NCBI RefSeq assembly: GCF_013004065.1 | Contig: NZ_CP053084.1 | Coordinates: 1,984,001-2,048,000, forward strand | Direction of reading: 5' to 3' | Source of the DNA: Limnobacter sp. SAORIC-580 | GTDB taxonomy: Bacteria; Pseudomonadota; Gammaproteobacteria; Burkholderiales; Burkholderiaceae_B | Length of the DNA stretch: 64,000 nt | Shown here: piece by piece, positions 26,618 to 37,537 of the stretch | Layout: every line of letters begins with the position of its first letter | Position numbering within the stretch: the stretch's first letter is position 1 | Position numbers and translations under genes: made by a program | The notes under the pieces: model-generated | Told to the model about the DNA's origin: nothing | Seen by the model: the letters and a program-made list of their open reading frames with translations, nothing else | Databases searched by the model: none

Positions 26618-27451
26618 TCAGCTCAGGTCACTTGAACCAGCAGCACCCGAGGACAAACCACTGTCGGTATCGGAACTGGAAGCGGTAGAACTGATTGACG
26701 AAGTACCGCCAGCAGAGGCAAAAAGCTCGGACGCTTCCTGAATACTGTTGGGACTGGAGAAATCCAGCGTCAAGGGGAAAGCTTCAGGAGAGGTAAACAA
26801 ACCGTCCAGCGTTGCTGCAAAAGCCAGCGAATGAGCGTTGCCCGCCAATTCTGGCTGCGCAAACAGGCCCGAGTCAATTTGCATCGATGCCAGCAATGAA
26901 TCGGTATCAAACTCAGCCACCTCGTGCACCGCATTACCAACTTCACTGGATAGCTCGCCAAACATGTCTTGACTTAATGCATTCAAGTCGAGCACCTGGG
27001 CTTGAATATCGGCAATCAGCTGAGTCAACTCGGAGTAACTAAGTTCACCACCCAAGGCGTGCTTCACGCGGGGCATTGCACTCAAAAGCTCAGCGTTCAA
27101 GGCTTCAAATGAGGCTTGTTCATTCATGGTATTCAGAATTCCTGCAGTGTCTGCGTTGGCAAGCAATGCCGGGTCAACACTGGCAAGGCTTGAAGAACTC
27201 TCGAAAACGCTGACGTCACTGACGCAAGCCTGAGAAATGCACCGCAATTCACCAAAGCCGAGAGAGGGTGCACTTGAAAATTCTTTGGGATCGAGACCGT
27301 CAAACGAAGAAAAAGCAATATTTGATGAACCAGAGGATGACTCAAAAGTGTCAAAAAACTCGATTGTCGCCCTGCTTATGGGTGCGAGCAGCCCACCAGC
27401 GGCATCGCTGTGATCGGTCTGCACTGACAATTGAATGACGGAATTTGACAT
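26618..27451 (-). CDS. Ser/Asp-rich protein, candidate type I secretion substrate
   Basis: A protein of about 277 residues that I do not recognise. It is acidic, poor in Lys/Arg, and lacks a signal peptide. The last 45 residues are almost all Ser, Ala, Gly, Thr and Asp, with SSSDTDSGLSSG near the end; the larger protein encoded just upstream has a matching tail (SSSESDSGLLDSLSSG). It is the last gene of the minus-strand run that encodes a complete type I exporter, so export is the simplest reading. Start is uncertain: ATG at 27451 or 27481, neither with a good ribosome site. A hairpin with a T-run separates it from the upstream gene. Confidence 0.7.
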   Translation of the reverse strand: MSNSVIQLSVQTDHSDAAGGLLAPISRATIEFFDTFESSSGSSNIAFSSFDGLDPKEFSSAPSLGFGELRCISQACVSDVSVFESSSSLASVDPALLANADTAGILNTMNEQASFEALNAELLSAMPRVKHALGGELSYSELTQLIADIQAQVLDLNALSQDMFGELSSEVGNAVHEVAEFDTDSLLASMQIDSGLFAQPELAGNAHSLAFAATLDGLFTSPEAFPLTLDFSSPNSIQEASELFASAGGTSSISSTASSSDTDSGLSSGAAGSSDLS

Positions 27452-27510
27452 AAACCCAATTTTTTCGTGACGTACTACCATTTTATACGATAGGCCACTC
27501 AAATTGGATT

Positions 27511-27540
27511 CAAAACACCCCCCTATCAAAAAAGGGGGTG
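27511..27540 (-). terminator. Hairpin with T-run between the two candidate substrate genes
   Basis: On the minus strand CACCCCC pairs with GGGGGTG (27534-27540 with 27516-27522) around an 11-base loop, and TTTTG follows. It starts 4 bases past the stop of the repeat protein. It may end or reduce transcription into the next gene. Confidence 0.65.
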
Positions 27541-27544
27541 AGTT

Positions 27545-28933
27545 TTATTTGTTTTGGTCCAGAGAACCCAACAAGCCATCCAGTGCACCACCTTCTGAGC
27601 CTGCACTGGAGGAAATCCCGCTGCTGAGCGAATCCAGCAAACCTGAATCGGATTCGCTTGAAGAACTGCTTAAACCAGACAGCAAGCCACCACCGCCGGT
27701 GATGGGGTCAAGAATAGGCTCCAACAAGGGATCAGTGATATCGGTCACTGGATCAAGAATCGGATCCACAATTGGATCAACCACTGGGTCTGTGACATCG
27801 GTAATCACATCCACGATTGGATCAACCACTGGGTCTGTGACATCGGTAATTACATCCACAATTGGATCAACCACTGGGTCTGTGACATCGGTAATCACAT
27901 CCACAATTGGATCAACCACTGGGTCGGTGATACCTCCAACCACATCATCAACGATATCTGTGACTGGGTCGGTGATACCGCCAATGCCGTCAGTGATGCC
28001 ACCCACAATGTCGGTAACAGGGTCCGTCACTGGCGACAAATCCAGATCAGGCAAGGAGCCCACCAAAGAAGCAATGTCATCAAACGTTGAATCCAGATTC
28101 AACAGACTGTCCAACTGCGGGTTGGCACCTACGTTGATCGTACCCAACAGGTCGGTCAGTACCGTGGAAACCTCGCCAGCGTCTTCAAAAATACTCAAAC
28201 CCAAATCACTGCTGGGCAGACCATTTTGCGCCGCAAACTGGTTCTGGACATCGCCACTCAGGTTGTCAAATACAGGCTCAAAAGTGGTGTTCAGCAAATT
28301 GATTTGATCAAGTACGGCATCGATGGCAGTTTGCAGGCTCTCGGGACTGGGGTTTTGGCCCAAACTGCCGATCAGGCTGTTCAATGCATCGTCGGGGTTT
28401 ATTCCGCCACCACCTTCCAGCATGGCCATAAGCTGAGCAAACTCTGCAGAGACCGGCACCAATGAACCATCGGGATTGGCGACAGGCTTGAGCAAAGTGA
28501 AATCTGAAACCTTTGAAAGATCAGTGGGCTGTGACAAAGCCTTGTTGCCCAAACCGGCCAAACTTGCAGACTCACCCACGGTGGTTTTACCAAAAGTAAC
28601 CGGGGCTGCGCTGGCCACTTGAGCCGCCATGCCCATGGCACTGGATGCACCACTTAAATCGGCTGCTGCCACTGCACCCAAAAGGCCTGCACCTGAATAC
28701 GCGGGGGACAATCCCGAAAAACCGCCACCAGATGGGTTCGATTGATGCAATTGACTTTTCGCCGCACTGCCAGGAAAACCGGAGTTGGCGCTTAAACCGT
28801 CGAATTCGGATGTGTTCAGGGTGGATTGCAAAAACTGCATGTTCAGAGCAGACGGATCAGCAAGTTGCTGTTCAGCACGCTCTACAGCCCGATCTTCGGC
28901 CGTGCTCTTCATGTTTTGAATGTCATCGCCCAT
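27545..28933 (-). CDS. Repeat protein, candidate type I secretion substrate
   Basis: A protein of about 462 residues with no family I can name. The N-terminal third is Gly/Ser/Ala-rich with short helices, the middle is acidic, and residues about 320-415 are built from D-P-V-x-D-P-I-x-D units; one 15-residue unit (DPVVDPIVDVITDVT) is repeated three times almost exactly. A Ser/Asp/Gly/Leu-rich tail closes the protein. No Cys, no N-terminal signal peptide and no GGxGxD calcium repeats are visible. The ATG at 28933 has AAAGGA 9 bases upstream; other in-frame ATGs lie at 28942 and 28966. It follows the tolC-type gene of a complete type I exporter on the same strand, so export is likely but inferred. 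Confidence 0.75.
   Translation of the reverse strand: MGDDIQNMKSTAEDRAVERAEQQLADPSALNMQFLQSTLNTSEFDGLSANSGFPGSAAKSQLHQSNPSGGGFSGLSPAYSGAGLLGAVAAADLSGASSAMGMAAQVASAAPVTFGKTTVGESASLAGLGNKALSQPTDLSKVSDFTLLKPVANPDGSLVPVSAEFAQLMAMLEGGGGINPDDALNSLIGSLGQNPSPESLQTAIDAVLDQINLLNTTFEPVFDNLSGDVQNQFAAQNGLPSSDLGLSIFEDAGEVSTVLTDLLGTINVGANPQLDSLLNLDSTFDDIASLVGSLPDLDLSPVTDPVTDIVGGITDGIGGITDPVTDIVDDVVGGITDPVVDPIVDVITDVTDPVVDPIVDVITDVTDPVVDPIVDVITDVTDPVVDPIVDPILDPVTDITDPLLEPILDPITGGGGLLSGLSSSSSESDSGLLDSLSSGISSSAGSEGGALDGLLGSLDQNK
27778..27930. repeat. 45-bp direct tandem repeats
   Basis: Three nearly identical 45-bp units at 27778-27822, 27823-27867 and 27868-27912, plus about 18 bases of a fourth. The units differ by only one or two bases. 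They encode the DPVVDPIVDVITDVT repeat of the protein above, in frame. Confidence 0.93.
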
Positions 28934-29066
28934 TTTTGTCATTCCTTTGGGAATCGCCCCACTCATGCCAGTTTCTCAGGGTTCGAGCCCTGCGAATGGA
29001 TGAATTAAGGCAGTAAAATGCCCCTGTTTGACCAGTGTGAGCACTTTACTGACAAAAATCAAGACT

Positions 29067-30758
29067 TTACCGATAAAACCTGGGATCGAGAACAGGCGCT
29101 GGTTTCAGGGTTGGCCGCAGTTCTTTTTCAGTCGTACTGCCCTGCACGCGGCTGCGTTCCGAGCTTTTCTCAACCTCAAGCCGCTGCGCCGGGGTCAGTA
29201 CAAATCCAGCTGCCTTCTCCACTTCGGTCTGGCTAACATCCAGGCCAAGCTTTTCCGCAATTTTTTGATCAGCCGGGCTGCTGGCAATGTCGGCCGTATC
29301 TTTCAAGCTACTCTCCAGGCGCTCGCGCTCGGGAGTTTTCGAGAAAAACAACTCAAACCAATCGCCCTCTGCACCGGGGGTTGGCATCATCAAGCCCATG
29401 GCATGCATCAAGCGGAAACTCGCATCCCGTGCATCAAACACTGCGTTAATGTATGCAATCAAAACGTTGAAGTACTCAACTTGGGCATCCAGCATCACGA
29501 TCACGGTTTCACGGCCAAAATCACGAAGCCTTTTGCGGTTTTTGAATACCTGCAAAGAATCGGCATAAGCGCCGCGCAAGGTCACCGATCGCGACTGCCC
29601 GGCTGACCATTTGCCCCACTGAAAGCGGACACTTTCCTCGACCCGCAATCGGGCTGCGGCCAGTTGGGCACGCCGGGTATCAATCGTGGCTGCCGCCTGA
29701 TTCACTCGAGCGACCTGTTCGCCGCCTGAAAAAGCGCTGTACTGCAAACGCAGGTTCACGGAGCTGTCGGTTCTGTCACCAGTAAAGGGGTCGGGTTCAC
29801 CAAAAAATTGCTGAATACCCACCAGGTTCAAAGACGGGTACAGGCTTGCATCCTCAGCCGTGTAGTTGTGTCGCGCTTTCACGATCTGGCTTTCAGCTAC
29901 ACGAATTTCCGGGTTGGAAAACAGCGCTTTCGTGACCGCTTCATCTACCAGCTGGGGCAACATGTTGCGCTGAATTTCCAGTTCCGGCACGTTGTAGCCC
30001 TCGGGATAAACACCGAAGTAACGGAAGTAAGTGGCACGGGCCTCTTCAAACTGTCCTTCAAAATTCACCAGCCGGTCACGGGTGACCGCCAAACGGGCTT
30101 TCGCAAATTGTGCATCGGTAACGCCGCTTCCGCCCAACTCAACCCGACGCTCCTCAAGGGCCAGCAATTGGGCGACGGCTGCCTCTGCGGCTCGGGAGGC
30201 TTCCACCAACAAAGCATTGCGCGACAAAGTACTGCTGGCCAAAAAGCCTTCGAGCACCACGTCTTGAATTGTTTTTACAAATTGCCCATCTGCGATAGTC
30301 CCATCGGTTTCAGCCGCTTTTACTCTCGCAGTAATTCGACCCGCGGTGTACAGGGGCTGGGTCACCGTAATGTCGGTCGATTGCCGGTTGGTCACTGTTG
30401 AACTAGAACTGGCATTGGCACCCACAGTAATTCTGGGGTAATAGGCAGCGCGGGCACCATCTTCAATAAATTGCGAGGCATTCACATTGATGCGTGAAGT
30501 CACAATTTCAGGGTTGGTGCGCAACATGTTCAGGAAGCGAATTTTGGTGAGCTCTTCCTTGCTCATTTTTGCTGCCTCTGCCGGAGCTATGCGTCGGGCA
30601 CGAAACTCGTTGTTGTCGTTGCCTACATTGGCAGAAGGCTGGTCGCTCGCGGGCAGATCTTGCGCACCCACGGGAAATGCAAGAAGGCCCGCAATCAGCA
30701 CACACAGTGCTTTGCGAGCCCATACGCCCCCCTGGGTCATGTCCAATTGTGTTGTCAT
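29067..30758 (-). CDS. TolC-type outer membrane factor
   Basis: A 563-residue outer membrane efflux protein. A signal peptide is visible at about 11-32 (ARKALCVLIAGLLAFPVGAQ). Two OEP repeats follow, with the conserved QPLYTAGRI early in the first and YSAFSGGEQVARV in the second. It should form the trimeric channel of a type I secretion system with the HlyD-type adaptor and ABC protein encoded 8 and about 1400 bases upstream. Residues after about 450 form a longer polar tail than in E. coli TolC, with a TPAQRLEVEKSSER segment. Confidence 0.9.
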   Translation of the reverse strand: MTTQLDMTQGGVWARKALCVLIAGLLAFPVGAQDLPASDQPSANVGNDNNEFRARRIAPAEAAKMSKEELTKIRFLNMLRTNPEIVTSRINVNASQFIEDGARAAYYPRITVGANASSSSTVTNRQSTDITVTQPLYTAGRITARVKAAETDGTIADGQFVKTIQDVVLEGFLASSTLSRNALLVEASRAAEAAVAQLLALEERRVELGGSGVTDAQFAKARLAVTRDRLVNFEGQFEEARATYFRYFGVYPEGYNVPELEIQRNMLPQLVDEAVTKALFSNPEIRVAESQIVKARHNYTAEDASLYPSLNLVGIQQFFGEPDPFTGDRTDSSVNLRLQYSAFSGGEQVARVNQAAATIDTRRAQLAAARLRVEESVRFQWGKWSAGQSRSVTLRGAYADSLQVFKNRKRLRDFGRETVIVMLDAQVEYFNVLIAYINAVFDARDASFRLMHAMGLMMPTPGAEGDWFELFFSKTPERERLESSLKDTADIASSPADQKIAEKLGLDVSQTEVEKAAGFVLTPAQRLEVEKSSERSRVQGSTTEKELRPTLKPAPVLDPRFYR

Positions 30759-30766
30759 GTGTTGCT

Positions 30767-32125
30767 TTATGGTTCTCTGAAGGCTTCTTGCTTCAGCTTC
30801 AATACAGGTTTTAACAAATAATAAATAAAGGGTTGCGAACCCACGTTAATGTCAACTTCAGCGGTCATGCCCGGTGAAATGCGCAGCGGTGCATCGGGCG
30901 TGCCAAAAAATGCCTTGTCTGTGCTCACAATCAAGCGGTAATAGGGGCCGGTTTCTTCCGTACCAGGGTCAGTGTCCGCTGCAATTTGGGTCACCTTGCC
31001 GGGCAAAGTGCCATAGCGCAAAAAGTCATAGGCAGACACCTTCACTTCCGAAGGTTGATCCATGCTCACATAACCGCGGTCTGCGGGTGAAAGTCGGGTT
31101 TCAACCACCAACACCTCATCGACTGGCACCACTTCCATGATGGGCTCACCCTGGCGAACCACGTTGCCCACGGCCTGTAACTTCAAGTTTTTCACCACGC
31201 CATCGATGGGTGACCGAATCACGGCACGGTCGCGCTGATCGCTGGCTCGATCAATTTCATCTTTCAAACTGGCCAACTGGCGTTCAAGCGTTGTTAATTC
31301 ATCCGCAGCCCTGCGGCGGAACTTGCCATCTTCTTCCACTCGGCGAGCACGGCTTTGCCCAACAGTGGCCTGGGCTGATGCAATGGTTTGCCGCATCGAG
31401 GCAATTTCAGCGGTCAAACTGTCGTAATCACGTTTCTTGGTCAAATATTCAAGCTGAGACACAAGGCGTTCGCGAACCAGTTCTCGGGTAATTTCCAGTT
31501 CACGCAGGGTAGTCACTGCGCGATTCTCCAAGCCTTCAAGCTTGGCTTGCAATTCGCCCACCTTACCCTGGTTGCCCAGCATCTGGCTGTCATTCACGCC
31601 CAGAATACCGTTCAATTCAGTAATGCGGGCAATGTAGGTGGACTGCTCGGTGCGATACAAATCGGGATAGTCTGCAATAATTTCTGCGGGATATTCTGGT
31701 GCCTTGCCCGAAGCCTCGCCCAGCAAACGCGCACGGCTCATCTCCAATGCGGCACGCCGGCTTTTCAATTCTTCAATGTTGATGCCCGAAGTGGCCAGGT
31801 TCAGTTGAACCAACATGGACCCTTCTTTCACCAGATCACCCTCTTTCACAGCCAGGTCCTGAACAATACCGCCTTCCAGGTGCTGAATACTTTTGACCCG
31901 GGTCGATGGAATCACCTTGCCCGGCGCAGTAACCACCTGGTCAACGCGGATGAACAAGGATGCGAACAAAGACAGCGCAATCAAACCCAGCGCAAACCTG
32001 CTTTTGGTGTCGAACCCACCACCATTGGGTTTGTAAAGGGCGGGGACCTCATAGGGCTTCAGATCATTTTTGCCGACTTCGGCCAATGCATTGTTCGACT
32101 TCATGATTTCTCGACCTTCGCTCAT
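30767..32125 (-). CDS. HlyD family type I secretion periplasmic adaptor
   Basis: A 452-residue membrane-fusion protein. A short cytoplasmic N-terminus is followed by one membrane helix (about 45-63), the lipoyl-type half motif HLEGGIVQDLAVKEGD, a long coiled-coil hairpin (about 120-290) and the second half motif RSPIDGVVKNLKLQAVGNVVRQGEP. The C-terminal block includes the HlyD signature ISPGMTAEVDI. The ATG at 32125 shares its A with the TGA of the ABC gene (TGATG), so translation is coupled; a GTG lies one codon earlier. It links the inner-membrane ABC protein to the TolC-type channel. Confidence 0.93.
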   Translation of the reverse strand: MSEGREIMKSNNALAEVGKNDLKPYEVPALYKPNGGGFDTKSRFALGLIALSLFASLFIRVDQVVTAPGKVIPSTRVKSIQHLEGGIVQDLAVKEGDLVKEGSMLVQLNLATSGINIEELKSRRAALEMSRARLLGEASGKAPEYPAEIIADYPDLYRTEQSTYIARITELNGILGVNDSQMLGNQGKVGELQAKLEGLENRAVTTLRELEITRELVRERLVSQLEYLTKKRDYDSLTAEIASMRQTIASAQATVGQSRARRVEEDGKFRRRAADELTTLERQLASLKDEIDRASDQRDRAVIRSPIDGVVKNLKLQAVGNVVRQGEPIMEVVPVDEVLVVETRLSPADRGYVSMDQPSEVKVSAYDFLRYGTLPGKVTQIAADTDPGTEETGPYYRLIVSTDKAFFGTPDAPLRISPGMTAEVDINVGSQPFIYYLLKPVLKLKQEAFREP

Positions 32126-34053
32126 CACGCTTGAGCGGCCTTGCCGCCCGCATCCGTATTTGCCTGTCCTTCAGCGCCATTGGCCCCCAGCGTCTGCTTG
32201 GCAGCCTCGGAAGTCACTTGCGACGCAGCTTTGGGCGCGGCTGGCACGGGCTTCGGTACAGAAATGCCATACAACAATTTCAGCATTTCCGGTGTCGCAC
32301 CAACGTGCAACTTTGAAGCCTTGTCCAGATAAATGATCTTGTCGCAAATCGACATTAAACGCACTGAATGCGTCACCATGATGATGGTCTTCACGGTGGC
32401 CAAGCTTTTAAACACGGCCATCAAGTGGGTTTCTGCCGCAAAATCCAGGTCGTTCGTGGGTTCATCCAGCAACAACACGGGCGCGTCCGACAAAAACGCC
32501 TGGGTAATGGCAACCCTTCGGCGTTGCCCACCCGACAAGCGGTTACCCCCCTCGCCCACTTGCGTCATGTAGCCATCTGGCATTTTTGCAATGAACTCAT
32601 GCGCACCAGAACGCTTGGCAGCCAACAAAATTTGCTCGTCACTGGCATCGGGGTTGGACCGGCGCAGGTTCTCAACAATCGTGCCTTCAAACAATTGCGA
32701 TGTTTGGGGCAAAAAGCCAATCCACTTGGCAAGTTCCTGCCGAGAGAACTGTGACAAATCGTATTCGTCCAGCAACACACGGCCGCTTTGAGGCTCATAA
32801 AGACCACGCAGCAATTTCAACAAAGTTGATTTGCCCGCGCCGTTGTCACCTGCCAAGCCGTAAATGCCACGGGGGCCAATTTGAGCCGAAACCGACTTGA
32901 CCACTTCCTTTTGTGCACCAACGTGCTGATAACTTACATTTTCAAGGCGCAAAGCGCCCGAAGGCATGGGCAGGTTCAAACCAGTGTGTTGCTTCTCCTC
33001 ATCTGCGGCAAACACTTTGTTCAAGCGGTCTGTGGCTTCACGGGAATGTGCAATCGAGCGCCAGTGACCAGTCAATGCAGCCAACGGGCCAATCGCCTTG
33101 GCAGCCAGCATGTTCGAGGCAATCAGTCCACCCACCGTCATCCATTGGTTAATCACTGCGTAGGCGCCCACAGCCGTAATGGCCACGTTCACACACAGCA
33201 TGATGGAGACCGACAACTCGCGCTGGTCTTCCATTTCACCATTTTTCTGAAATGATTCCTGAACCCAGGAGTTGTAGCTTGACACCCAGGCCCGCTTGGC
33301 AGAATCGTCCTGCACCAAGCTTTTAATCGCTTCACGGCCCCGGCAAACCTCGGCCAGCACTTCATCCCGGCGGCGAGCGCGCGAAAATTCCTCCACTCGG
33401 CGCTTGCGGAATTCACCCGAGCTGTACCAAGACAAGGCGGCCAAACACACCAAGCCAATCAGCACCACGGGCAATACAGGCATAGCGATAGTGGCGATCA
33501 ATCCAATGGCCAGAATGGCAAATGGCAGATCAAGAATGGTCATGGCAACCGCGCCACTCCAGACCACGCGCACGGTGTCCACATCTTTAAACAGGGAATA
33601 CCAAGCCGCAGTTGAACGGGCCTCCAACTGTCGCAATGGGATCGACAGAATCTTGTTCATCAATTTGCTGGCGATTTGCCCGTCAATTTTTACCGCAGCC
33701 ACACGCAGAACTCGAGCCCGGAACGAACGCAAAATCAGATCTGCTGCAAGCAAAATACCCATGCCGATCAACAAAGCGGTCAGTGTATTCAGGCCCGAGC
33801 GGTAAATAACCCGGTCATATACCTGCAAGGAAAATACCGCAGGGAATAAGGCCACCAGATTCACGAAAATCGACAACAACGCCGCACGCTTTAGCAAAGG
33901 CAAGGCGCTGCGAATGACCCCCTCAACTGTTTTTGAGTTGGATGCGTCGACCGCATTATTCCCATCGGCGGCGGCATCTCCCGATTTTTCCGGCTTCAAG
34001 CCGAAATTCCAGAGCGCTTCGAGTCTTTCTTTGAACAAATATTTAACCGACAT
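32125..34053 (-). CDS. Type I secretion ABC transporter (permease fused to ATPase)
   Basis: A 642-residue exporter half-transporter. The membrane domain is at about 65-330. The ATPase has Walker A GDNGAGKST (about 400-408), signature LSGGQRRRV (about 507) and Walker B VLLLDEPTNDLD (about 529). There is no N-terminal C39 peptidase domain, so the substrate would not be processed at a double-Gly leader. It resembles PrtD/LapB-type exporters. The C-terminal extension after residue 600 is Ala/Pro-rich. Co-directional with the anti-sigma-like gene (14 bases) and the adaptor (overlap). Confidence 0.92.
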   Translation of the reverse strand: MSVKYLFKERLEALWNFGLKPEKSGDAAADGNNAVDASNSKTVEGVIRSALPLLKRAALLSIFVNLVALFPAVFSLQVYDRVIYRSGLNTLTALLIGMGILLAADLILRSFRARVLRVAAVKIDGQIASKLMNKILSIPLRQLEARSTAAWYSLFKDVDTVRVVWSGAVAMTILDLPFAILAIGLIATIAMPVLPVVLIGLVCLAALSWYSSGEFRKRRVEEFSRARRRDEVLAEVCRGREAIKSLVQDDSAKRAWVSSYNSWVQESFQKNGEMEDQRELSVSIMLCVNVAITAVGAYAVINQWMTVGGLIASNMLAAKAIGPLAALTGHWRSIAHSREATDRLNKVFAADEEKQHTGLNLPMPSGALRLENVSYQHVGAQKEVVKSVSAQIGPRGIYGLAGDNGAGKSTLLKLLRGLYEPQSGRVLLDEYDLSQFSRQELAKWIGFLPQTSQLFEGTIVENLRRSNPDASDEQILLAAKRSGAHEFIAKMPDGYMTQVGEGGNRLSGGQRRRVAITQAFLSDAPVLLLDEPTNDLDFAAETHLMAVFKSLATVKTIIMVTHSVRLMSICDKIIYLDKASKLHVGATPEMLKLLYGISVPKPVPAAPKAASQVTSEAAKQTLGANGAEGQANTDAGGKAAQA

Positions 34054-34067
34054 TGCGAGTCCCTAGG

Positions 34068-34484
34068 TTACACAGCGCCTGCCGAACCAGCCATGCGCAA
34101 CTGCTGCGCCTTGAGTCGTTCAAGCAATACCAGGTACGAGGCGATCAAACGGACAACAGCAGGGCGCATGCCGGCCAACTGTTCGCGAGTCAACTTGGCC
34201 AACGGGTTTTCCAAGCGGGTATGGGCATCGGGCTGCGCATCGATTGCACGGCATACCCGCTCAAATACATTGCTAAGCGCGGCGTCCACTTCAGCTTCAG
34301 TCATCGCGGAATACAACACTTGTGGCTTGGCATCAATCAAACTCAAACGCTCTTGCCAGTTCAGTACCGATTTGGCCAACACGGGGTCCAATCTCAACTG
34401 TCCTTCAAATGCGGTGCGCTCGGCTCCACGCATCACGCCAAGTACGTAGTCGGCAGCCAACCAGTTTTTGTCGTCGTCAGTCAT
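34068..34484 (-). CDS. Anti-sigma-factor-like protein, soluble
   Basis: A 138-residue protein. Residues about 8-35 (WLAADYVLGVMRGAERTAFEGQL) match the start of RskA/ChrR-type anti-sigma domains. Unlike most RskA proteins it has no membrane helix and no periplasmic domain, so any signal would have to be sensed in the cytoplasm. The usual His/Cys zinc residues are not seen. It lies 9 bases after the ECF sigma gene, the standard place for its antagonist. The role is inferred from this placement and the N-terminal motif. Confidence 0.75.
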   Translation of the reverse strand: MTDDDKNWLAADYVLGVMRGAERTAFEGQLRLDPVLAKSVLNWQERLSLIDAKPQVLYSAMTEAEVDAALSNVFERVCRAIDAQPDAHTRLENPLAKLTREQLAGMRPAVVRLIASYLVLLERLKAQQLRMAGSAGAV

Positions 34485-34493
34485 GCGGCCCCC

Positions 34494-35129
34494 TTATGCC
34501 ATGTATCCGGATTGTTCAGCGTCCTGGCGACGCGAATTGTTCGCAGCCATGGTTGCCAAGCCTTCGGACTGAAATTCGTCATATACGGTTTTCAACTCGA
34601 TCAAGCCCCTGCGAACCCAGGTTTTAACGGTGCCCAATGGCACGTCCAGGTGCTCTGATATCTCTGCATGGCTCATGCCGTGGGTATAAGCCAAAGTAAG
34701 CACCTGGCGATATTTGCCTTCAAGGCGTTGCACGCAGGCCTGCATTACCCGGCTGGTTTCCTTGTCATCGCTGCTCGTTGAATGAGCTTCAAACACCAAT
34801 TCATTGGGTTCGTCGTCCTGGTCAGAAAACTGGTCCAGGGAAATTGAATTCACGGTGTGGCTTTGCTGGGCGATTAGGTCAAGTGCCCTGTTTCTCACCA
34901 CTTGGTGCAACCAGGTTTCGGGTGCAGACAACTTGTTGTTGAAAGTGTGGGCGTATCGCCAAAGCCGGATATAGGCGTCCTGAAGCACGTCTTGAGCCAT
35001 GCCGGGCTCCCGAACTATGCGCAACGCAACAGCAAACATCTTTCTAGACGTGAGTTGATACAACTCCTCAAACGCCTTTCGATCGCGATTTGCAATTCGT
35101 TCAATTAAAGAAGCGAGCTCTTCTCTCAA
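34494..35129 (-). CDS. ECF RNA polymerase sigma factor
   Basis: A 211-residue group IV sigma factor. Region 2 covers residues about 17-85 (RKAFEELYQLTSRKMFAVALRI, then QDVLQDAYIRLWR), and region 4 covers about 130-185 with the helix-turn-helix SHAEISEHLDVPLGTVKTW. It is SigK-like. The start is a TTG at 35129, with GGGG upstream; no ATG gives a full region 2, and the next in-frame ATG would cut it. First gene of the minus-strand run that includes the anti-sigma-like protein and the type I exporter, so it probably controls that export system. Confidence 0.92.
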   Translation of the reverse strand: MREELASLIERIANRDRKAFEELYQLTSRKMFAVALRIVREPGMAQDVLQDAYIRLWRYAHTFNNKLSAPETWLHQVVRNRALDLIAQQSHTVNSISLDQFSDQDDEPNELVFEAHSTSSDDKETSRVMQACVQRLEGKYRQVLTLAYTHGMSHAEISEHLDVPLGTVKTWVRRGLIELKTVYDEFQSEGLATMAANNSRRQDAEQSGYMA

Positions 35130-35285: not shown

Positions 35286-35309
35286 AGTATCCCCTAGCTA
35301 AGGGATACT
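35286..35309. promoter_or_regulatory. 24-bp dyad between sigma factor and LuxR-type gene
   Basis: AGTATCCC (35286-35293) and GGGATACT (35302-35309) are perfect complements, with the self-complementary TAGCTA at the centre and a single mismatched pair. It lies in the 368-base gap between the divergent sigma and LuxR-type genes. A second, shorter dyad, ACTGT-N6-ACAGT, is at 35181-35196. The rest of the gap shows no gene. A two-fold site fits a dimeric regulator of the NarL/LuxR type. Confidence 0.6.
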
Positions 35310-35497
35310 AGCAAAAGTTCCGATTCCAGAACAGTACTTGCATTGTCTATTTGCTTACATAGTAGGTCGAAATGCAATCCCCCCCAAAGTAATTAACCCG
35401 CTTGAAATTACCTACGGAGCATTGAATCCAAAATTTATCACCTGAAGTACAAATCGAATAAGCAGCAACCCAAACAAATCCAAAAGCGGGGCAAACG

Positions 35498-36232
35498 ATG
35501 ACCTTAATACCGAGCTGGCCGAGCCAGCCACACATGGGTGGGACTATGAAGAATGAAAAGGGCTTGGCAGGTCGACCACTAACGCCCCGAGAAACGGGCA
35601 TTCAAAATACCCCACCGGGCAGGACCATCAGCCTTCAGCCCATGTTCGTCACCAACCGGACAACCCTTGAAGAAATCGACAACCACCTGGCCAGCGCTGA
35701 AACGCGAATCGTGGTGATTACCATTGAAAAAGGCAACAGGCATGGCGAGGCCGTGGTTCAACACATTGGTGCAAGCTATTCCGATGTTCGAGTTGTATTG
35801 GTGTGCGAAGGCAATGCGCAAGACATTCTGGCGATGGCATTCAAACCTGGCGTGTGGGCTTGTGTAGGCCGCCAATCGTCAGTAGAAACGCTTCGCGAGG
35901 CAATAGACACCGTTGCCGCAGGCGCCCGTTATGTGGCCCCTGAACTGGTGAATAACAAAACAACCCCTTCTTACGGCTCTTCCGAGCAGCAAAACCTGGG
36001 GGGCCAAATTAATCCACTGGCCGACCAAGACGAAGGCGCCCAATTGACCCGCCGTGAACGTCAAGTGCTTACCTTGATTGCTCAAGGCCGTCCTCGCCGT
36101 GAAATCGCAGAATTGCTGAAGGTTTCACCGCGCACTATCGACGCTTACCGCGCGCGTTTGCTGCAAAAGTTGAATCTGGATTCCAGTGTTCAACTGGTGA
36201 AGTACGCAATTTCCGCGGGCATGGCCAGCTAA
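35498..36232 (+). CDS. LuxR family regulator with degenerate receiver domain
   Basis: A protein of up to 244 residues. The C-terminal LuxR helix-turn-helix is intact (LTRRERQVLTLIAQGRPRREIAELLKVSPRTIDAYRARLLQKL, about 180-222). The N-terminal domain has the shape of a response-regulator receiver, but the strand that should carry the phosphoacceptor Asp reads RIVVITIE with Thr at that place, and the conserved Lys is replaced by Arg in CVGRQSS. Phosphorylation control is therefore unlikely. In-frame ATGs at 35498, 35531 and 35546 leave the start unsure. It is divergent from the sigma/export operon and may regulate it. Confidence 0.85.
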   Translation: MTLIPSWPSQPHMGGTMKNEKGLAGRPLTPRETGIQNTPPGRTISLQPMFVTNRTTLEEIDNHLASAETRIVVITIEKGNRHGEAVVQHIGASYSDVRVVLVCEGNAQDILAMAFKPGVWACVGRQSSVETLREAIDTVAAGARYVAPELVNNKTTPSYGSSEQQNLGGQINPLADQDEGAQLTRRERQVLTLIAQGRPRREIAELLKVSPRTIDAYRARLLQKLNLDSSVQLVKYAISAGMAS

Positions 36233-37212: not shown

Positions 37213-37288
<76 letters not shown>

Positions 37289-37295
37289 AATTCCT

Positions 37296-37326
37296 AAGGG
37301 GAAGTGATACACTTCCCCTTTTCTTT
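37296..37326 (+). terminator. Hairpin between tRNA-Gly and tRNA-Cys
   Basis: AAGGGGAAGTG (37296-37306) pairs perfectly with CACTTCCCCTT (37310-37320) around ATA, with TTCTTT after. An 11-bp stem with a mixed T-run; it may be a partial terminator or a processing signal. Confidence 0.6.
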
Positions 37327-37354
37327 GCCCGCCATATTTTGGTGGAACACCCTT

Positions 37355-37428
37355 GGCGGGGTGGCAGAGTGGTCATGCAGCGGACTGCAACTCCGTGTAC
37401 GCCGGTTCGATTCCGACCCCCGCCTCCA
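37355..37428 (+). tRNA. tRNA-Cys (GCA)
   Basis: A 74-base cloverleaf with encoded CCA. The acceptor GGCGGGG pairs with CCCCGCC, and the anticodon is GCA in CTGCAAC. Confidence 0.96.
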
Positions 37429-37444
37429 AGTTTTCAAGCCATCA

Positions 37445-37537
37445 GCCCGGGTGGTGAAATTGGTAGACACAACGGACTTAAAATCCGTCGCTTACCGTAA
37501 AAGGGGCGTACCGGTTCGATTCCGGTCCCGGGCACCA
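37445..37537 (+). tRNA. tRNA-Leu (TAA)
   Basis: A 93-base class II tRNA with encoded CCA. The acceptor GCCCGGG pairs with CCCGGGC. The anticodon is TAA in CTTAAAA, and a long variable arm follows, as expected for Leu. Confidence 0.97.

Follow-up and report, generated by a model that had tools for sequence, protein, structure and literature searches.

In Pseudomonas, the PrtI/PrtR pair, an extracytoplasmic function (ECF) sigma factor and its membrane-bound anti-sigma factor, affects a protease that is exported by the Apr type I exporter. In Serratia marcescens, the hasI-hasS-hasR-hasA-hasD-hasE-hasB cluster combines an ECF sigma factor, an anti-sigma factor, parts of a type I exporter and its cargo, and HasI is not autoregulated (PMC9249621). 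Here we describe a run of seven genes in a 64,000-nucleotide stretch of the genome of Limnobacter sp. SAORIC-580 (C1:1984001–2048000 of a single 3.3-Mb contig, 99.8% complete; hereafter the window). The genes, all on the minus strand, encode an ECF sigma factor, an anti-sigma factor, an ATP-binding cassette (ABC) transporter, a HlyD-type adaptor, a TolC-type channel and two candidate cargo proteins, c1 and c2, in this order. The seven-gene arrangement is real and conserved in Limnobacter, and is not due to chance. Like the has operon, it clusters sigma factor, anti-sigma factor, exporter and cargo, and its sigma factor appears not to be autoregulated. The same report (PMC9249621) relates HasI and HasS to FecI and FecR and assigns the sensor role to the TonB-dependent receptor HasR, whereas the Limnobacter pair is of the SigK/RskA type with a probably soluble anti-sigma factor, and the run contains no gene for a TonB-dependent receptor. 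An earlier note on this DNA had regarded the arrangement as lacking a described precedent. In that form the view is not supported: the has operon is a precedent, and about 35% of class I anti-sigma factors are predicted to be soluble (PMC7406223). An operon that joins an ECF sigma factor to a type I exporter and its cargo is thus not new in itself; the Limnobacter cluster differs in its SigK/RskA-type pair with a probably soluble anti-sigma factor, and the shared promoter element is new. A search of titles and the beginnings of abstracts found no publication on this exact combination. Nothing pairing Limnobacter with type I secretion was found either, and a broader search listed no Limnobacter paper, which says little; four exporter terms do not occur in a Sinorhizobium ECF paper (PMC6180224).

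The co-directional order and the tight junctions as far as TolC, both reported in the earlier note, hold. The intergenic gaps are 9 nucleotides (nt) between the sigma factor and anti-sigma factor genes, 14 nt between the anti-sigma factor and ABC genes, and 8 nt between the HlyD and TolC genes, and the ABC and HlyD genes overlap at the ABC stop codon. The TolC–c1 gap is 100 nt, which is about equal in close relatives and larger in distant ones. The c1–c2 gap is 93 nt when c2 is counted from ATG 27451, a start conserved in close relatives that gives a protein of 277 residues and replaces the start at TTG 27529 given earlier. A scan with the ABC transporter found 21 loci; 15 from close relatives (L009–L023) were compared for synteny, and the other six (26–31% identity) were left out. 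The order sigma–anti-sigma–ABC–HlyD–TolC was found in 13 of the 15 loci, and the remaining two, L020 and L022, are contigs of one metagenome-assembled genome that jointly hold the full order. The sigma factor gene is present in 14 loci, the exception being L022, a contig that starts inside the ABC gene. The c1 gene is present in 13 of the 15 loci and the c2 gene in 12, and the absences coincide with contig ends. The conservation of the sigma factor together with the exporter in related genomes, on which the earlier note had staked its proposal, is therefore seen within the genus. In L023 (Burkholderiales), the ABC open frame stops at 398 codons and is possibly broken; given this locus, the cluster may extend just beyond Limnobacter. 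The short anti-sigma factor was found in 14 of the 16 genus genomes, the two without it being 85% and 65% complete. Among 300 genomes of the order, near full-length matches to its profile occurred in two, both Limnobacter, and the other matches were to the N-terminal part within longer proteins. The ABC profile (E ≤ 1e-90, six candidates scored per genome) matched three of 200 order genomes, namely two Limnobacter and one other. The match in the latter (39% identity) was rejected as the same cluster: its upstream protein is different, and no sigma or anti-sigma factor match was found in the 4.7-kb flank.

The sigma factor possesses regions 2 and 4 only (PF04542, 55.1 bits, and PF08281, 59.9 bits, both over the cut-off), as expected of an ECF sigma factor, and its closest solved chain is SigK (4nqw_A, E = 7e-22). 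Its start is TTG in all 14 loci having the gene, where the nearest start was chosen by a script. The conserved AACTTTTGCTAGTATC-type stretch upstream of the gene could serve as an ordinary promoter of the extended −10 kind. The structure model of the anti-sigma factor displays an N-terminal anti-sigma domain of the RskA type (helices H1–H3 plus H4), and RskA was the second match in the structural search. In these respects the pair resembles SigK–RskA of Mycobacterium tuberculosis and its Gram-negative relatives. In contrast to those systems, in which the PF10099 relatives listed have 215–253 residues, the Limnobacter anti-sigma factor has only 138 residues with no Pfam hit and no periplasmic PF10099 part, and is linked to a type I exporter. 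The claim that it has no membrane helix is supported, since no clear transmembrane helix was detected; the maximum hydropathy (KD19) is 1.59, in a helix carrying charged residues. At the place of the usual membrane anchor there is an extra, strongly conserved C-terminal helix. The protein is probably a soluble RskA-type anti-sigma factor without the usual membrane and periplasmic parts, and the N-terminal part of RskA by itself inhibits SigK (PMC7509140).

All three components of a type I secretion system, ABC transporter, adaptor and outer-membrane channel, are present. The ABC transporter matched PF00664 (77.3 bits) and PF00005 (110 bits); its TIGR03375 score of 427 bits, across profile positions 134–681 of 696, does not reach the cut-off of 693, and the protein has no counterpart to about the first 130 positions of the LssB model. 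The adaptor scored 344 bits against TIGR01843 (cut-off 208.65), and the channel scored over the cut-off for PF02321 (135.7 bits) and under that for TIGR01844 (177.5 bits, cut-off 225).

Consistent with the earlier description of the last two proteins as having no known family, c1 and c2 matched no Pfam or NCBIfam family above the cut-off. No match to the retention module NF033682 was found at E ≤ 1, and the repeats-in-toxin (RTX) signature GGxGxD was counted 0 times in both. Composition analysis showed that both proteins are acidic, with 0–2 Cys and no N-terminal hydrophobic stretch: c1 (about 421–509 residues among complete copies with script-chosen starts) has an isoelectric point (pI) of 4.05, no Cys and DPVVDPIVDVITDVT repeats, and c2 has a pI of 4.05 and 19% Ser. 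The DPVVDPIVDVITDVT-type repeats of c1 (window 27700–28010) differ between species. Both proteins evolve fast beside the conserved exporter. A common C-terminal motif, S-x-I-S-S-x-A, ends 18–20 residues before the C-terminus and is conserved in each family. In c1, S449, I451, S452, S453, and A455 are invariant (13/13), and in c2, I253 and A257 are invariant and S252, S254, and S255 are conserved in at least 90% of 36 sequences. The window and three other stretches of the genome contain 86 open reading frames (ORFs) of at least 150 residues when counted from stop to stop without overlaps; within their last 50 residues, the strict motif was found in c1 and c2 only. The shared motif is only suggestive of a type I export signal. 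The two proteins are probably distant paralogues (moderate confidence): their profiles aligned with a score of 38.5 over 78 columns (c1 193–270, c2 124–201), whereas 40 column shuffles peaked at 25.8 and the reversed profile gave 18.6. One record labelled Mycobacterium tuberculosis (P0146) showed 93% identity over 17% of c2 and is probably contaminated or chimeric.

Alignment of the intergenic regions across the loci revealed a promoter-like element, in which TTGAATCC is followed after 17 nt by GTATAA before c2, and by GTACAA in a like layout before the gene of a LuxR-type regulator (luxR; PF00196, 64.5 bits) that is divergent from the sigma factor gene. With the window row included, every luxR-side row (15 of 15) has the core TGAATCC and every c2-side row (13 of 13) has TGAATC. 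When the −10 half and a spacing of 16–19 nt were added, 11 of 14 luxR-side and 11 of 12 c2-side loci matched in a manual count. The window contains two matches, one at each cluster end, versus 0.01 expected from shuffles. A looser pattern gave seven matches in the source genome (control 0), located at luxR, c2, the two retention-like genes RM2 (2881 kb) and RM1 (2884 kb), the genes of a subtilase and a lipoprotein, and inside a 337-residue coding frame (hemB-like by eye). Across the genus, the pattern TTGAATCCN{16,18}GTANAA occurs 52 times, in 14 of 16 genomes, and its reversed control not at all. In a sample of 151 genomes of the family, 28 matches fell in seven Limnobacter and 32 in 26 of the 144 others, where the control gave 16; the density is about 3 sites per genome in Limnobacter versus about 0.2 in the 144 other members. 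The majority of the 52 sites lie before c2, luxR or genes of predicted secreted or surface proteins; by manual classification they belong to c2 (12), luxR (9), RM1 (9), RM2-like genes (5), a lipoprotein hydrolase (6), the subtilase (4), a DUF4214/weak RTX protein (1), a di-haem oxidoreductase lipoprotein (1), the region upstream of yaaA (2), and the inside of coding frames (3). The element consists of two boxes 17–18 nt apart, mostly less than 60 nt from a start. Among 45 distinct sites, excluding the three coding ones, the spacer is 17 nt in 36 and 18 nt in 9; because the sites were chosen by the pattern, the conservation of its fixed letters follows from the selection itself. In L196 and L197, from two distant Limnobacter genomes, the sites lie 146 and 205 nt upstream of a gene identified by eye as yaaA, and one of the two sites also falls in a 341-residue open frame. 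We consider that c2 probably has its own promoter of the TTGAATCC-N17/18-GTANAA type, downstream of a terminator-like hairpin that follows c1. The hairpin is lost, by eye, in L017, L018, L019, and L021, and a region-wide scan found 17 hairpins versus 12.9 in shuffles, so that the scan alone is weak.

RM1 (279 residues, L190:237–1076) and RM2 (1021 residues, L195:57–3122) are neighbours at about 2881–2885 kb, each with its own element, that of RM2 reading CTGAATCC. RM2 contains a long Ser-Asp repeat, which matches staphylococcal Sdr/Clf models far below the cut-off. The subtilase gene (L191:1190–3190, minus strand; PF00082, 140.7 bits) has the element upstream; the Gly-rich, hydrophobic C-terminal tail of the protein looks like a sorting signal by eye, and the enzyme could process surface proteins. 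The RM1, RM2, subtilase and hydrolase site groups were confirmed by BLASTP, and their family scans covered the own-genome members. The LuxR-type gene is a likely regulon member. The N-termini of RM1 and RM2, and of four unlinked tail-motif proteins (L125, L126, L130, and L131), resemble the retention modules of LapA/LapB-type adhesins. These N-domains are mutually related in phmmer searches, some pairs weakly, and the proteins share with c1 and c2 a pI near 4, 0–2 Cys and the lack of an N-terminal hydrophobic stretch. The strict tail motif is present in L130 and L126 and a looser form in L131 (PISSGAS) and L125 (PISTDG), and RM1 (PIGSAP) and RM2 have none. Unlike LapA/LapB systems, the module scores are under the cut-off or absent (NF033682 matched only L131, with 28.2 bits versus a cut-off of 50), the linked ABC transporter lacks the N-terminal LssB-model part, and LapG (PF06035) has no match in the source genome, the control search giving a match in 1 of 14 (Caulobacter). 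Lap-type release was rejected on the ground of the missing LapG match. Candidate elements before the genes of L125, L126, L130, and L131 were also rejected, agreeing at merely 9–11 of 14 positions. Outside the cluster, tRNA genes for Gly, Cys, and Leu lie at window 37213–37537 between queC-like and metG-like genes.

Table 1. Features of the sigma factor–exporter cluster and its flanks (window positions).
Feature	Position	Strand	Basis
ECF sigma factor, 211 residues, TTG start, SigK-like	34494..35129	-	PF04542/PF08281; 4nqw_A; 14/15 loci
Short, probably soluble anti-sigma factor, 138 residues, RskA-type domain plus conserved C-terminal helix	34068..34484	-	
Type I secretion ABC transporter, 642 residues	32125..34053	-	PF00664, PF00005; TIGR03375 under cut-off
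HlyD-type periplasmic adaptor, 453 residues	30767..32128	-	TIGR01843 over cut-off
TolC-type outer-membrane channel, 563 residues	29067..30758	-	PF02321 over cut-off; TIGR01844 under cut-off
c1, candidate cargo, 473 residues	27545..28966	-	No family over cut-off; orthologues in 13 loci; composition
c1 C-terminal motif SGISSSA, residues 449–455	27602..27622	-	Alignment of 13
Terminator-like hairpin between c1 and c2	27516..27540	-	9 pairs, 6 G-C, then TTTTG
Promoter-like element TTGAATCC-N17-GTATAA before c2	27483..27513	-	Intergenic alignment, pattern scans
c2, candidate cargo, 277 residues from ATG 27451	26618..27451	-	12 loci; alignments; composition
c2 C-terminal motif SSISSTA, residues 251–257	26681..26701	-	Alignment of 36 sequences
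Promoter-like element TTGAATCC-N17-GTACAA before divergent LuxR-type gene	35422..35452	+	TGAATCC core 15/15 rows
LuxR/GerE-type regulator, 244 residues, likely regulon member	35498..36232	+	PF00196; element 45 nt upstream
AACTTTTGCTAGTATC-type stretch conserved ahead of the sigma factor gene, possible extended −10	35305..35320	-	Footprint alignment; not kept in L021, L023

We favor, with moderate confidence, an explanation in which the sigma factor drives cargo and surface genes, the soluble inhibitor gates the sigma factor, and c1 and c2 are exported by the linked machine. The SigK-like sigma factor, the membrane-free anti-sigma factor, the complete exporter and c1 would be made in one operon, the exporter and c1 being transcribed from the own promoter of the sigma operon. 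The anti-sigma factor would hold the sigma factor in the cytoplasm, and upon release the sigma factor would guide RNA polymerase to the TTGAATCC-N17/18-GTANAA promoters, switching on c2, the adjacent luxR and the scattered predicted surface and secreted genes. The c1 and c2 proteins, which have no signal peptide and carry the candidate C-terminal signal, would leave through the linked exporter and form a coat or adhesin that stays at or close to the cell surface. Gene content, order and conservation, the modelled anti-sigma fold, the c1–c2 kinship (moderate) and the element with the genes behind it come from sequence analysis; the reading of the element by this sigma factor, the export route and the surface role are inferred. 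The cluster sigma factor quite likely reads the element, and we have similarly good confidence that the linked ABC–HlyD–TolC machine exports c1 and c2, which makes their role as exporter substrates, proposed in the earlier note, plausible. The surface layer or adhesive coat envisaged there is also plausible, but for c1 and c2 themselves the assignment as coat or adhesin is tentative.

Several observations weigh against this explanation. The same N-terminal part of RskA can also activate SigK (PMC7509140), and thus inhibition by the 138-residue protein is not certain. The hhalign probability for the relation of c1 and c2 is just 44%, and the structure model of c2 is unusable (mean predicted local distance difference test score, pLDDT, 51.3). 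The element is absent before the exporter operon and c1 (best agreement 10 and 9 of 14 positions). Since it precedes c2, luxR and unlinked surface genes but not the exporter operon, the sigma factor seems dedicated to the cargo and not to the exporter; of the earlier proposal that it serves both, only the cargo part would then stand. The subtilase and the lipoprotein have Sec-type N-termini by eye, so the exporter would not be their route. As far as examined, c2 alone combines the element with the strict C-terminal motif: RM1 and RM2 have the element but other tails, and L126 and L130 have the strict motif but no element. Finally, the genome contains two further type I ABC–HlyD sets. One (L127:7751–17001), with a PrtD-type ABC transporter (620.7 bits, over the cut-off), lies near a large RTX protein (HemolysinCabind, 211 bits). 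The other (L128:8817–12317, minus strand) has an LssB-like ABC transporter of 712 residues (TIGR03375, 453 bits, under the cut-off) and a HlyD protein (TIGR01843, 347 bits), with no obvious cargo within the retrieved stretch.

This last system raises the doubtful but not negligible alternative that the linked exporter serves only c1, perhaps with c2, and that the retention-like proteins use the L128 system, the C-terminal likeness being low-complexity convergence. Ser/Gly-rich tails converge easily, and the lack of the strict motif in RM1 and RM2 fits this alternative. However, both occurrences of the strict motif among the 86 ORFs are in the cluster, and the tails of L126 and L130 resemble that of c1 past the motif by eye. 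It is unlikely that the element belongs to another factor, either another sigma factor or a LuxR-type protein, and flanks the cluster by accident while the cluster sigma factor acts on other promoters. Sigma region 2 matches at 13 places in the source genome, the cluster sigma factor included, and the sigma operon lacks the element, although many ECF sigma factors are autoregulated. On the other hand, the two-box layout, the spacing and the nearness to starts are promoter-like and do not form a LuxR palindrome, the element brackets the sigma operon, and its enrichment tracks the genus holding the sigma factor. The has report (PMC9249621) also describes a sigma factor without autoregulation. 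That c1 and c2 stay unexported, as cytoplasmic or envelope-associated accessories of the exporter or sigma pathway, would agree with the lack of RTX repeats and of a known family but is quite improbable, given their location after TolC, their acidic and Cys-poor composition without a signal-peptide-like stretch, and their rapid divergence next to a conserved exporter.

The favored explanation leaves room for one extension, which we regard as very unlikely: the anti-sigma factor may sense the state of the exporter, so that the sigma factor is freed by cargo that stays behind in the cell, or by the anti-sigma factor itself leaving through the linked machine, as FlgM exits through the flagellum. 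This would be compatible with the operon-like run of sigma factor, inhibitor, exporter and c1, which holds no membrane sensor, and with the strongly conserved C-terminal helix in place of the anchor. If true, a functioning exporter would be the precondition for expressing the cargo and surface genes, which would be a type I form of export-coupled gene control. More generally, the cluster brings together, in compact form and throughout a genus, a sigma factor, an RskA-type inhibitor that naturally lacks an anchor, an exporter and cargo, and lends itself to the joint study of all four. The promoter sequence and the list of candidate target genes can be put to the test directly, and the short C-terminal motif in two divergent cargo candidates may help to approach type I substrates that are not RTX proteins.

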